From assembly GCF_037094685.1 (NCBI RefSeq), contig NZ_CP146614.1, positions 1,550,001 through 1,614,000 on the forward strand: 64,000 bases of DNA. The letters are read 5' to 3'. Below the pieces are notes generated by a model. The model saw nothing but the letters and a program-made list of their open reading frames with translations, was not told the origin of the DNA and did no database searches. The number at the start of each line of letters is the position of its first letter. The stretch's first letter is position 1. Source of the DNA: Massilia sp. METH4. Its GTDB lineage: Bacteria; Pseudomonadota; Gammaproteobacteria; Burkholderiales; Burkholderiaceae_D. Shown one piece after another: positions 19,189 to 40,657 of this stretch. The position numbers and the translations under genes are program-made.

Positions 19189-19791
19189 TTACAGGCTTCC
19201 TTTGGTGGAGGGAATCGTGCCGGCCGCGCGCTCGTCGAGCTCGGCGGCCATGCGCAGCGCGCGCCCAAATGCTTTGAATACTGTCTCGCACTGGTGGTGG
19301 GCATTGGTGCCGCGCAGGTTGTCGATATGCAGCGTGATGCCGGCATGGTTGACGAAGCCGCGGAAGAATTCCAGCGTCAGGTCGACGTCGAACGTGCCGA
19401 TCATCGCGCGCGTAAATGGAATGTGGTATTCGATGCCCGGGCGGCCCGAGAAATCGATGACGACGCGCGACAGCGCTTCGTCCAGCGGCACATAGGCGTG
19501 GCCGTAGCGGCGGATGCCCTTGCGGTCGCCGATCGCCTTCGCCACCGCCATGCCCAGGGTGATGCCCACGTCTTCGACGGTGTGGTGGTTGTCGATATGC
19601 GTGTCGCCGACGGCCTTGACGTCCAGGTCGATCAGGCCGTGGCGGGCGATCTGGTCCAGCATGTGGTCCAGGAAGGGCACGCCGGTATCGAGCTTTTGCA
19701 CGCCGGTACCGTCCAGGTTCAGGGCGACGCGGATCTGCGTCTCGTTGGTGTTGCGGATTACTTCTGCAATGCGGGCTGCGGGCAAATTCAT
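19189..19791 (-). CDS. hisB: Imidazoleglycerol-phosphate dehydratase
   Basis: HisB dehydrates imidazole glycerol phosphate to imidazole acetol phosphate using a Mn cluster. It is the monofunctional 200-residue form, without the N-terminal histidinol-phosphatase domain of enterobacteria. Both metal motifs are present: HHTVEDVGI near residue 70 and [11 protein letters not shown] near residue 165. A separate histidinol phosphatase must be elsewhere, since none lies in this window. Confidence 0.97.
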
Positions 19792-19849
19792 GGGGGAACT
19801 CAGGGTTAGGTGGGCGCCAACGGGGCTCGATGAGCGGTCAATACGGTTA

Positions 19850-20938
19850 TCAGCTCAGCGATGCTTTCAACGCTTCCAGGAAAGCGGCGTTCTCGTCCGG
19901 CGTGCTGACGGTCACGCGAAGACAGTTCGCCAGCACACTGTGCATTTTACTCAAATTTTTAATCAGAATTTTACGACTTACCAGTTTGGCATGGACGCTG
20001 TCGGCATCCGGCACGCGGATCGTGATGAAATTGGCCGCCGACGGGAACACCTGCACGCTTGGCAAGGCCGCCAGCGCCTCGGCCAGCGCGGCACGCTGCT
20101 CGCGCAGCAGCCGCGCCTGCTCGTTCAGGATCTCCACGTGGTCGAGCACGAACTCGGCCGCCGCCTGCGTCATCACGTTGACGTTGTAGGGCGGGCGCAC
20201 CTTCTCGAACTGCTCCAGCAGGGCCGGGTGCGCGCTCATGTAGCCGAGGCGGATGCCCGCCAGGCCCAGCTTGGACAGGGTGCGCATCACGATCAGGTTG
20301 TCGAACTCCGGCAGGCGCGGCATGAAGCTCTGCTGGGCGAACGGCTCATAGGCTTCGTCGACCACGACCAGGCCGCGCTCGCCCTGCGCGCGCAGGATCG
20401 CCTCGATGTCGGCCGCGTCGAACAGGTTGCCGGTCGGGTTGTTCGGGTAAGCCAGAAAGATCAGCGCCGGGCGGTGCGCCTCGATGGCCGCCAGCATGGC
20501 CGGCAGGTCGAGCGCCAGGTCCGTTTTCAGGGGCACGCCCACGAAATCCATGCCGGCCACCTGGGCCGAGCGCTGGAACATCACGAAGGCTGGCACCGGC
20601 GCCAGCATGACGGCGCGCCGGTCCTGCCATGCGCAGGTGGCGGCCATGATGGCGATCAGTTCGTCGGAACCGTTGCCCAGCAGGACATCGTAGCCGGCCG
20701 GGATGCCCAGCGTGGCGCGGATGCGCTCCTTCAGCGGGCCGTACGAGGCAGCCGGGTAACGGTTCAGCGCCACTTCGGCCAGGCGGTTGCCCAGCTCGCG
20801 GCGCAGGTCCTCCGGCAGCTGGTACGGGTTTTCCATCGCATCGAGCTTCACGAAGCCGCTCGCGTCCGGCACGTGGTAGCTCTTGTCGCTGCGCACGTCC
20901 GGGCGGATGGTGTTGCTGATCAGGCTGTCGAGGGACAT
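19850..20938 (-). CDS. hisC: Histidinol-phosphate aminotransferase
   Basis: A PLP-dependent class I/II aminotransferase (362 residues) converting imidazole acetol phosphate to histidinol phosphate. The PLP lysine is in [16 protein letters not shown]. Other hallmarks are [10 protein letters not shown] at the N-terminus, [10 protein letters not shown] for phosphate binding and YPNNPTGN. It follows the methyltransferase after only 20 bases, so it is probably on the same transcript even though that gene interrupts the pathway genes. Confidence 0.97.
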
Positions 20939-20958
20939 CTTTTTAACACTCCAATGCG

Positions 20959-22065
20959 TTATTCGGGGCTGTCGATTGCGGCAACAGCCTTTACTAAGGG
21001 TTTCCTGGCGGCACGCTTCCTGGGCGGCGCTGCTGGAAAACCGGGGTCAGACCCCTGCGGATCCAGGGCCGTGGGCTGTATCGCCGGAAAACCGGGGTCA
21101 GACCCCGGGATCGCGGCGCGGACCTTGGCGCGGCGGCGGGCCTTGGGGTCGGACCCCTGCGGATCCACCGCCGCTGGCTGCATCGCCGGAAAACCGGGGT
21201 CAGACCCCAGAACCACGGCGCGGACCTTGGCACGGCGGCGGGCCTTGGGGCCAGACCCCTGCGGATCGGCGGCCGCGGGCTGCGGATCCGCGGCCGCCGG
21301 CTCCGGGTCGGCGTCCAGTTGCTCCAGGCGTTCAGCCAGGATCCTGCAATAGTCGGGATTCAGTTCAAAGCCGGTGAAGTGGCGGCCCGTGTTGCGCGCC
21401 GCGACGGCGGTGGTGCCGCTGCCCATGAACAGGTCCAGCACCACGCCACCGGGCGGACACGATGCCTTGACCATCCGTTCGATGATCTCGAGCGGCTTTT
21501 GCGTGGGGTGATCGACCCGCTCCGCATGTTGCCTGTGCAGCCGCGATACGCTCCACAGGTCTTTCGGGTTGTAGCCCTGCTCCAGCCATTTGGCGCCCAC
21601 GAAGATGGAACGCGACCTGGCCTTCTTGGTCTCGGCGTCGTACGGGATGCGCACGGCGTCGAGGTCGAAATAGTAATCCTTGCGGCGCACGAAAAAGCCG
21701 ATGGTGTCGTGCACCGACGTGAAACTGCGCACCGTGCCGCCCATCGAGGGCACCCGGCGGTCCCAGATGATCTCGTTGATCATCGTCATCCGCCGTTTCA
21801 GCATCACGAAGATTTCCGGCGCCGAGCGCCACGTCGTGAACACATACAGGCTGCCGTTTTCCTTCAGCTTCGGCAGCGCGGCATCGACCCACTGTTCGGT
21901 CCACGCCAGGAATTCGTCCACCGATTTCTGGTCGGACGCATTGCCGTAATCCTTGCCCAGGTTGTACGGCGGGTCGGTCAGGATCAGGTCGATGGAACCG
22001 TCGGGGATGCGGTGCAGGCCTTCCAGCGCATCCTCGCAGAACACCCGATCTAGCCAGTCGCTCAT
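20959..22065 (-). CDS. Orphan DNA adenine/cytosine-N4 methyltransferase with 17-residue repeat tail
   Basis: A 368-residue site-specific DNA methyltransferase. DPPY (31-34) comes before the SAM-binding FMGSGTT (213-219), with about 180 residues between for target recognition; this order is the beta class, like CcrM or M.HinfI. The core ends near residue 250. Residues 269-345 are four to five in-frame 17-residue repeats, alternating [15 protein letters not shown] and GSDPGFPA, very basic and low in complexity, encoded by DNA palindromes. No restriction endonuclease is adjacent, so it is orphan. It starts inside the hisD stop (ATGA), so it is coupled to histidine genes. Target sequence cannot be read from the protein. 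Confidence 0.9.
21043..21259. repeat. Five GGGGTCnGACCCC-type palindromes at exact 51-bp spacing inside a gene
   Basis: 13-bp palindromes begin at 21043, 21094, 21145, 21196 and 21247, each exactly 51 bp (17 codons) apart. The core is GGGGTCAGACCCC, with GGGGTCGGACCCC at 21145 and GGGGCCAGACCCC at 21247. Two sorts of 51-bp unit alternate, so the whole is a 102-bp tandem repeat. One unit has a GGAAAACC flank; the other has CTGCGGATC. The array encodes the tail of the his-operon methyltransferase without breaking its frame. Confidence 0.9.
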
Positions 22066-23378
22066 GATTTCAACCGCAGCTCCGCGCTGCGCGCATGCGC
22101 CTGCAAGCCTTCGCCGTACGCCAGCTCGGCCGCGATTTTACCAAGCGTCTGGGCGCCGGCTTCGCTGACCTGGATGACCGACGAGCGTTTCTGGAAGTCG
22201 TACACGCCCAAGGGCGACGAGAAGCGCGCCGTGCGCGACGTGGGCAGCACGTGATTCGGGCCGCAGCAGTAGTCGCCCAGCGATTCGGACGAGAAACGGC
22301 CCAGGAACATCGCGCCGGCGTGGCGGATCTTGTCGGCCCACTGCTGCGGCTCCTCGGCGGAGATCTCCAGGTGTTCGGCGGCGATGGCGTTGGCGATTTC
22401 GCACGCTTCTTCCATGTCGCGCACCTTGACCAGCGCGCCGCGGTCCGTCAGCGAAGTGCGGATGGTTTCCTGGCGCGGCATCGTCGGCAGCAGCTTCTGG
22501 ATGGATGCTTCCACTTTCGCGATGTACTCCGCGTCGGGGCACAGCAGGATCGCCTGCGCCAGCTCGTCGTGCTCGGCCTGCGAGAACAGGTCCATCGCCA
22601 CCCAGTCCGGGTCCGTGGTGCCGTCGCACACGACGAGGATCTCGGAAGGGCCGGCGATCATGTCGATGCCGACGGCGCCGAACACGCGGCGCTTGGCGGC
22701 GGCCACGTAGGCATTGCCGGGGCCGACGATTTTGTCGACCGGCTGGATCGTCTCGGTGCCGTAGGCCAGCGCGGCCACGGCTTGCGCGCCGCCGATGCCG
22801 ATCACGCGGTCCACGCCGGCGATCGCCGCGGCGGCCAGCACCATCTGGTTCTTCACGCCATCCGGTGTCGGCACCACCATCACGATCTCGCCCACGCCGG
22901 CCACCTTGGCCGGAATGGCGTTCATCAGCACGGAGGATGGGTATGCCGCCTTGCCACCCGGTACATAGATGCCCACGCGGTCCAGCGGCGTGATGCGCTG
23001 GCCGAGGATCGTGCCATCGGCCTCGGTGTACGTGAAGCCTTGCAGTTCCTGCTTCTGGCGCTCGTGGAACACACGGATGCGCTCGGCTGCCGTCTGCAGG
23101 GCGGCACGCTGCGCATCGGGCAGCGCGGCCAGCGCGGCGTCCAGCTCCTGCTGGCCGATCTCGAAGGCGCCAATGCCGGCCGCGCCGCCATGCGGGATGC
23201 GGTCGAACTTGTTGGTGTACTCGACCACCGCTTCGTCGCCGCGGGCACGCACCTGGGCGATGATCTCGGTGACGGCTTTTTCGATGGCGAAGTCGGTTTC
23301 CGCTTCGAACGCGAGCAGCGCGTCGAGCGTTTCCTGGAAATCGATGGCGGTGGAGTCGAGCTTGCGGATCTGGATCAT
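22062..23378 (-). CDS. hisD: Histidinol dehydrogenase
   Basis: HisD catalyses the last two NAD-dependent oxidations from histidinol to histidine. The 438-residue protein shows VYVPGG, VVPTPDG, the family signature stretch around [23 protein letters not shown], and GPNHVLPTS near the zinc site. It follows hisG after 23 bases. Its stop codon is shared with the start of a DNA methyltransferase instead of hisC, which is the oddity of this operon. Confidence 0.97.
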
Positions 23379-32869: not shown

Positions 32870-33049
32870 GGAAAGTAGGTGCCGGCGCTGGGTTGTGAAA
32901 ACAAAGCTACTATCTTAATACGCATGCAACTATTAAATTCTCACCAATTGTCGCAATTACAATTTTTCTACACTATAGGAATTGCGGTTACAAAGTGCTG
33001 TACTGCGCTTTGGGGCAACAGGTCACCTTCAAAGTCGTGACGCGGATTT

Positions 33050-33166
33050 ACAACAGGGACAGTCCCCGCTGTGGAATAACAACAGGGACAATCCCTGGTG
33101 CGGCCTTACAACAGGGGACTGTCCCCAGTGTGGATTTACAACAGGGGACTGTCCCGGTGTGCAGTT
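33050..33166. repeat. Tandem array of 29-30 bp units with GGGACWGTCCC palindrome cores
   Basis: ACAACAGGG begins at 33050, 33079, 33108 and 33138, and a fifth, truncated copy ACAACA begins at 33167. Units are 29, 29, 30 and 29 bp. Each carries a palindromic core, GGGGACTGTCCCC or a variant such as GGGACAGTCCCC or GGGACAATCCC, followed by a diverged 10-12 bp ending in TT. There are no unique spacers. The same core is at 39717-39729. Confidence 0.9.
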
Positions 33167-33177
33167 ACAACAAAAAG

Positions 33178-39814: not shown

Positions 39815-39833
39815 ACCGGGGTCAGACCCCGGT
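39815..39833. repeat. 19-bp ACCGGGGTC-A-GACCCCGGT palindrome
   Basis: A perfect palindrome around a central A, 25 bases beyond the RAYT stop codon. The 13-bp core is the same as the repeats inside the his-operon methyltransferase. The position resembles REP sequences that flank their RAYT gene. Confidence 0.85.
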
Positions 39834-39857: not shown

Positions 39858-40556
39858 TCAGATAGACTGCGGCTGCTTGAAGGGGCGGCCGCGCTTGGCG
39901 GGGAGGACTTGGCGCTTGGCTTTCTGTTCCAGGTCTTTCTTGTATTTGTCGGTGCCCAGCGGCCAGCCCTTCAGCACGGCCGCTTCGACCGTGGCGATCT
40001 CGGCGGCGGAAAGGTATTGGGCGGACAGTTCGATGTAGGCCGCTTCGCGCTGGAATGGCGTATTGCCGAGCGACCAATAAGCCGGGTGGTCGGTGACGGC
40101 CGGGTCGTTGCGGATGCCCGCGTGATGGGCATAGCTGGACCAAGGATACGTTTCGGCGGCCGCGGCCGGCGCCGCGCGCACGGGGACGTATTCGATGTAG
40201 CGGCAGCAGGTCAGCAGGAAATGGTCGGCGTCGACGACCGACGTCTTGTAGCGCCCGTGCCACAGCGTGCCGGCGCGGCCGTATTTCTGGTTGTAGTAAG
40301 GCACATAGCAGCGGCCCAGCCATTGCATCATCTGCCCCAGCCCATCCTCGTCGGCGGGTGTAGCGAGCAGGTGGAACTGGTCCGGCAACAGCGCGTATGC
40401 ATGGATCGCCACCTTGTACGTGCGGGCCGCCGCGCGCAGCCAGCCGAGGAAGATCGTGTAATCGTCCGTATCCTGGAACACCGGCTGGCCGTTCAGGCCG
40501 CGCTGGATGATATAGTGGGGCTGCGAGGGAACGATGAAGCGGGGCAGGCGGGCCAT
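39858..40556 (-). CDS. REP-associated tyrosine transposase (RAYT, IS200/Y1-like)
   Basis: A 232-residue single-strand DNA transposase-like protein. RAYTs are thought to mobilise short palindromic repeats. The family frame is clear: PHYIIQRGLNGQPVF (13-27), HAYALLPDQFHLLATP (52-67), GTLWHGRYK (96-104) and RYIEYVPVRA (119-128), which holds candidate catalytic tyrosines Y120 and Y123, then TYPWSSY. The HUH position reads Gln60-Phe-His62, so the first metal-binding His is replaced, which is unusual. The C-terminus is Lys/Arg-rich. The ATG at 40556 begins the conserved MARLPRFIVP; an upstream start lacks support. Confidence 0.88.
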   Translation of the reverse strand: MARLPRFIVPSQPHYIIQRGLNGQPVFQDTDDYTIFLGWLRAAARTYKVAIHAYALLPDQFHLLATPADEDGLGQMMQWLGRCYVPYYNQKYGRAGTLWHGRYKTSVVDADHFLLTCCRYIEYVPVRAAPAAAAETYPWSSYAHHAGIRNDPAVTDHPAYWSLGNTPFQREAAYIELSAQYLSAAEIATVEAAVLKGWPLGTDKYKKDLEQKAKRQVLPAKRGRPFKQPQSI

Positions 40557-40657
40557 GGCGATGCGAATCGAACGAAAGCCGCATGATACCGCGGCCGCGA
40601 GCACCCTGTCCCCGATTATTATGGAAAATTAAAATTTCCCTGTGACTCTGTCCCTGA

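Follow-up and report, generated by a model that had tools for sequence, protein, structure and literature searches.

It is very likely that the C-terminal tail of a DNA methyltransferase of Massilia sp. METH4 owes its repeats to REP palindromes that invaded a permissive, basic extension of the enzyme and were then multiplied by tandem duplication of a 102-bp unit, a change most likely tolerated rather than selected. The gene was examined in a stretch of 64,000 nucleotides (hereafter the window), and the features discussed are collected in Table 1.

Table 1. Features of the methyltransferase gene, its tail array and related loci (window coordinates unless a locus handle is given)
Feature	Position	Strand	Basis or remark
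N6/N4-type DNA methyltransferase gene, 368 aa	20959..22065	-	PF01555 E 1.1e-56; PDB 8urk E 1.3e-118 over residues 12-252
Enzyme core, residues 1-252	21310..22065	-	Pfam 25-244; last predicted helix 237-252 in a weak model; 8urk ends 4 residues past core match
C-terminal tail, residues 253-368 and stop, without predicted secondary structure	20959..21309	-	Sequence, weak predicted model
102-bp unit 1: K1 half (21209-21259) and F2 half (21158-21208)	21158..21259	-	Half-unit identities
102-bp unit 2: K3 half (21107-21157) and F4 half (21056-21106)	21056..21157	-	Half-unit identities
F5: palindrome, then old tail end (APPRKRA)	21005..21055	-	32 and 33 of 51 against F2 and F4
Palindrome 1 in protein order (GSGP)	21247..21259		One mismatch, GGGGCCAGACCCC on +
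Palindrome 2 (GSDPGF)	21196..21208		Exact GGGGTCNGACCCC
Palindrome 3 (GSDPKA)	21145..21157		Exact GGGGTCNGACCCC
Palindrome 4 (GSDPGF)	21094..21106		Exact GGGGTCNGACCCC; with flanks the 17-mer CCGGGGTCAGACCCCGG
Palindrome 5 (GSDPGF)	21043..21055		Exact GGGGTCNGACCCC
Intergenic alpha-class palindrome, AAACC-GGGGTCAGACCCC-GGT	39818..39830		Window
RAYT-like transposase gene (Y1_Tnp)	39858..40604	-	PF01797 25.8 bits, cut-off 23; NF047646 54 bits, cut-off 80
cobL-like gene with beta-class REP	L141:869-2041 (G000:C1:5866281-5867450)		Palindrome at L141:1005

Results

The methyltransferase and its tail

The profile match to PF01555 (192.7 bits against a cut-off of 26.7) places the protein in the N6_N4 methyltransferase family, and its TDPPY motif (T30-Y34) is invariant across 28 sequences; at 109 bits, it falls short of the NCBIfam equivalog cut-off of 830 for CcrM. 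The best solved relatives are 9c3u and 8urk (E about 1e-118), the latter of which we take to be M.BceJIV. The core ends near residue 252, as the original prediction of about 250 had it, since 8urk aligns up to that residue and terminates four residues beyond the match, and the tails that follow vary between lineages. An AlphaFold model (28 sequences, mean pLDDT 56) was used only to place helix ends; low confidence in the tail should not be read as proof of disorder, parts of the core (95-180) likewise falling below a pLDDT of 50.

The gene lies between hisD-like and hisC-like genes (window 19189-23378), presumably hisD and hisC themselves, the names being recognised from the translations, and the hisC-like gene starts about 20 bp downstream. 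A crude motif test over 110 loci found hisC-like motifs downstream of the methyltransferase in 105 and hisD-like motifs upstream in 84, some loci having little upstream DNA.

A 102-bp unit with regularly spaced palindromes

The tail carries four exact GGGGTCNGACCCC sites and a fifth with one mismatch, spaced exactly 51 bp apart between 21043 and 21259; by the frequency of the remaining 39 genomic sites, 0.007 would be expected in 1.3 kb. All five share one frame of the ORF, in which they encode GSDP four times and GSGP once. The 51-bp spacing had been recognised from the sequence beforehand and holds exactly; the 17-residue repeat unit deduced from it does not. The half-units designated K and F are conserved among themselves (K1 and K3 are identical at 44 of 51 positions, F2 and F4 at 46 of 51), whereas K and F halves agree with each other at merely 16-17 of 51, 12 of these inside the palindrome, and a 51-bp unit was rejected on account of this unlikeness outside the palindrome. 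Because the two kinds of half share only the palindrome, the true unit is one of 102 bp, and the 51-bp regularity of the palindromes follows from the length of each half-unit; Tandem Repeats Finder also places the 102-bp period on top (score 384, versus 156 for 51 bp). Copies differ by about 10-14%, so that the array cannot have grown very recently. The half-unit F5 may be a third unit that lacks its K half, or may reflect the gain of a half-unit.

Concerning the number of units, the tails of the first 24 proteins in a list of 120 were examined. P0002, with a core 99.6% identical to that of the window, has one unit, P0001 (core 98.8% identical) has two, and the window has two and a half; P0001 and P0002 are single metagenome contigs each, and their unit numbers require either parallel growth or a contraction. 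Judging by these sequences, unit number is labile, and the range from one to two and a half, together with the half-unit identities, agrees with the in-frame tandem growth that had been proposed. The tail of P0009 contains an independent-looking expansion of GSDPGF with a 14-residue period, seen at the protein level only.

A dispersed palindrome family and its RAYT-like genes

The whole genome contains 43 exact GGGGTCNGACCCC sites, compared with none for the reversed control, and 252 matches to the looser pattern GGGGNCNGNCCCC, compared with eight. A crude codon model, whose training set was 40 ORFs of the window and which scores the methyltransferase tail itself low, gives coding support to only five of the 43 exact sites (four in this tail and one in a cobL-like gene) and none to the other 38. 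The palindrome is thus short, present in many genomic copies and mainly extragenic, and the tail palindromes can be classed as REP-type, the class of the intergenic repeats to which they had originally been assigned. Mobility of these REPs is suggested by their presence and absence among relatives.

When sorted by eye according to their flanks, the palindromes include an alpha class (AAACC-palindrome-GGTTT with GGAAATATTTCC spacers), a beta class (of greater length, with GTGTCTCGT arms) and further subtypes such as GGGGACNGTCCCC; the second-type sites of the tail, GACCCCGGTTTTCC, match the alpha class. Elsewhere in the window (33044-33172) there is a tandem array of units of about 29 bp with GGGGACTGTCCCC-type palindromes.

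Four Y1_Tnp genes are present in the METH4 genome, two of which were tested against the NCBIfam RAYT cut-off: L082 passes and the gene of the window falls below it. An associated RAYT is found for the GGGGTCNGACCCC pattern, as the RAYT-like gene L171 of genome G003, to which the best match in the METH4 genome is 56%, has two such sites on either side, and METH4 genes L082 and L084 have one nearby site each. METH4 gene L081 and L174 of G028 are flanked by GGGGACNGTCCCC and L173 of G027 by a mixed type, while no palindrome sites were found beside METH4 gene L083 or L172. Of 16 genes orthologous to the RAYT-like gene of the window, just two have a GGGGTCNGACCCC site alongside, and nine are without a site of any subtype. 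The differing subtypes at L081, L171, L173 and L174 suggest matched pairs of gene and palindrome.

Distribution of the palindromes among orthologues

Tails were read in 110 loci, namely 80 named loci, those scoring best among 506 relatives, and 30 from 74 same-genus genomes, which represent 93 distinct orthologues; these are the best-scoring relatives, distant ones being represented only by 8urk. GGGGNCNGNCCCC occurs in the tails of seven of the 93, and the remaining tails differ in sequence. Over all 110 loci, duplicates included, the 16.0 kb of tail sequence contain 16 sites, five of which belong to the window, and the 561 kb of mostly coding sequence that surround the tails contain none.

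In a DNA tree of 24 cores, six bearers of the palindrome (L085-L090) form one clade (100/98) with Pseudoduganella flava (L091) as its sister (95/93), a position that a protein tree of 33 rows does not resolve. The six species of this clade, that of the window included, have two palindromes or decayed forms thereof 51 bp apart in the pattern GSDP-patch-GSDPG, one member of the pair having at least one mismatch in L087, L088, L089 and L090. The tail of P. flava contains the basic patch QPKARAKVRA without a palindrome, and the tails of 91 of the 93 orthologues have a net positive charge. For both of these reasons the basic patch is attributable to the host tail, the palindrome supplying GSDP(GF), and the earlier notion that the palindrome gave rise to the basic repeats finds no support; a basic tail is, judged by charge, the conserved trait.

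The seventh bearer, P. chitinolytica (L093), belongs to a separate branch and carries two palindromes that are likewise 51 bp apart; no palindrome is found in the tails of its sisters L092 and L095. The P. chitinolytica genome contains seven exact sites in total (control 1), two of them in the methyltransferase tail. Between the two tail palindromes of L093, 19 of 38 positions are shared with the corresponding stretch of L089 (shuffle p about 0.006), a likeness which hints at one older insertion followed by several losses, and because of this hint the state of P. flava could be a loss instead of the empty state. As far as the comparison of these sequences reaches, it shows a REP gain in an ancestor of the clade of P. 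lurida and P. umbonata, an older gain being possible; the whole distribution may reflect two gains, or one older gain and several losses.

Of the 74 genomes, 15 contain the flanked 17-mer CCGGGGTCNGACCCCGG. Counts of 11-28 copies are confined to the five closest bearers, the highest number elsewhere being three; in P. lurida (G027) the single copy is the one in the methyltransferase tail. Counts of the plain 13-mer in 16 genomes show it to be abundant even where the tail is palindrome-free (66 copies in G018, 70 in G010, 67 in G060 and 45 in G005), so its abundance alone does not predict invasion.

Codon use within the motifs

In 17 motifs from seven genomes, whose copies are related by descent and hence do not count as independent events, Gly is encoded by GGG in 16 of 16 cases (cores 1/113, rest of the tails 3/20) and Pro by CCC in 16 of 17 (cores 25/99, rest of the tails 28/87). 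Ser is encoded by TCT nine times, TCC five times and TCA once, while the cores use TCG (56), AGC (31), TCC (12) and AGT (5) and TCT appears in none of 104 core and none of 18 other tail Ser codons. These counts bear on the proposal that the tail is an old protein domain whose palindromes are a by-product of codon use. The GSDP-patch-GSDP arrangement is common to six species and resembled in a seventh, as such a domain might be, but the motif employs codons (GGG, TCT) that are rare elsewhere in the same genes, the palindrome recurs across the genome, mostly at sites without coding support, and no GSDPKAR repeats in ordinary codons were seen among the 93 orthologues. We regard an old domain as highly improbable. 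The non-coding origin put forward in the original prediction is retained, the same tail without palindromic DNA not having been seen in the 93 best-scoring orthologues, with distant ones covered via 8urk only.

The palindrome DNA itself gives no ground for a claim of selection: four of its arm sites do not vary among five sisters, yet 81 of 117 fourfold columns of the core are equally invariant (chance 0.23).

Other in-frame insertions

An unrelated repeat is found in frame in the same methyltransferase tail of five Massilia-group orthologues (L033, L038, L039, L044 and L052), where it encodes VIPAKAGI...SRLRGND or a similar peptide. Among the three examined with an inverted-repeat tool, L052 and L033 contain inverted repeats with arms of 36 and 31 bp that are 94% complementary, and none was found in L038. 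One or other element occurs in the tails of 12 of the 93 orthologues; over the 110 loci, duplicates included, the motif of this second element (TCCCGC...GCGGGA type) occurs six times in tails and ten times elsewhere. At locus L058 such a motif follows the methyltransferase tail at a distance of 15 bp and so falls just beyond the coding sequence. A beta-class REP also lies in frame near the end of the cobL-like (CbiE/CbiT) gene, and the inserted residues are absent from all five orthologues found in the eight genomes searched, the METH4 genome included. Two unrelated palindromic elements have entered the methyltransferase tail in different lineages. It is doubtful, if conceivable, that the tail serves as a recurrent landing pad for such elements, with REPs acting as recombination points that change its length and thereby affect DNA binding.

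Discussion

Based on these findings, we consider invasion by REPs and subsequent 102-bp duplication to be very probably the origin of the tail array. A permissive basic extension of the methyltransferase would have been the host for the insertion, and alpha-class REPs, read in the GSDP frame, would have come to flank its basic patch in an ancestor of the clade that includes P. lurida and P. umbonata. In the lineage of the window, the palindrome-patch-palindrome segment may then have undergone duplication as a unit of 102 bp, for which slippage or unequal recombination is the probable mechanism; a half-unit may also have been lost or gained via recombination between palindromes. The likely source of the elements is the RAYT/REP system of the group, an association partly borne out by the sites beside the RAYT-like genes, the movement itself being presumed. 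The change was most likely tolerated and not selected for.

A role for the array at the level of RNA, in which hairpins near the 3' end of the methyltransferase message would adjust either the decay or the translation of the neighbouring hisC-like gene and the coding location merely reflects a gap that is too short, strikes us as quite improbable. None of 100 shuffles folds as well as the 301-nt tail RNA (z -4.06), three tail doublets reach z values of -2.2 to -2.9 (an intergenic doublet reaches -5.9), and the linkage to hisC-like motifs described above would suit such a role. However, any palindrome array would fold in this manner, translating ribosomes would unwind the hairpins, 86 of the 93 orthologues are without such palindromes, and the mismatches in one member of the pair in four species of the clade likewise argue against it.

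The tail might otherwise be an adaptive DNA- or RNA-binding extension whose growth was selected as it doubles the basic patch. The prevalence of net positive tails and the recurrence of the basic positions of the patch across species would be in keeping with this, yet the charge of the window tail (+5) is below that of the one-patch tails of L086-L088 (+7 to +8). The GSDP motifs lower the charge of the tail, which would be +9 without them. Furthermore, the solved relative 8urk stops right past the core, and dN/dS of the tail unit (0.30-0.95, over a short sequence of 23 codons) exceeds that of the core (0.06-0.14) in ten of ten pairs. On balance we hold selected growth to be unlikely.

In the preferred account of REP invasion and tolerated duplication, part of a protein is now encoded by repeat DNA. 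For this intragenic REP, the sequences reveal the repeats it came from, a sister without palindromes and the subsequent changes in unit number. This makes the tail a concrete locus at which to ask whether REP-encoded protein is merely tolerated or gains a role. Literature searched by sequence gave no match to the repeat letters, and for the Massilia tail peptides returned only papers with unrelated titles; topic coverage of this search was incomplete and the case is not claimed to be unpublished.

Several known systems share features with the present one. The palindromic elements of Rickettsia (Ogata 2000/2002, via PMC10969869 and PMC3733652) are likewise mobile palindromes that have entered unrelated genes without disturbing the reading frame, and RPE-4 and RPE-6 are described there as REP-like; those elements, however, measure about 150 bp and have a conserved peptide (PMC10969869), whereas the shared element here is a REP of 13-17 bp that encodes GSDP(GF), and the host patch was amplified along with it. 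PARCEL (PMC2996958) also consists of variable-number coding tandem repeats with dyad symmetry, but its 25-residue amphipathic motif is associated with membrane proteins and has spread among distant taxa. The REPIN/RAYT system (PMC3116915) resembles ours in its dispersed palindromes, doublets and neighbouring tyrosine transposases with matching subtype; its REPs are mostly extragenic, 14 of 1,067 occurrences of the most abundant 16-mers overlapping genes.

The closest likeness is to the intragenic REPs of Di Nocera et al. (2013, PMC3733652), which lie within ORFs and are read in frame as in the present case, occur often in DNA-handling proteins and in some clusters encode 43-82 aa. Those REPs carry GTAG or CGTC tags, neither of which was recognised by eye in the flanks of the genomic palindromes here, and the text of that paper mentions neither Massilia, Janthinobacterium nor Burkholderia. 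The methyltransferase tail belongs with these intragenic REPs and, with its palindrome-free sister and varying unit number resolved, is a well-resolved variant of a known event.
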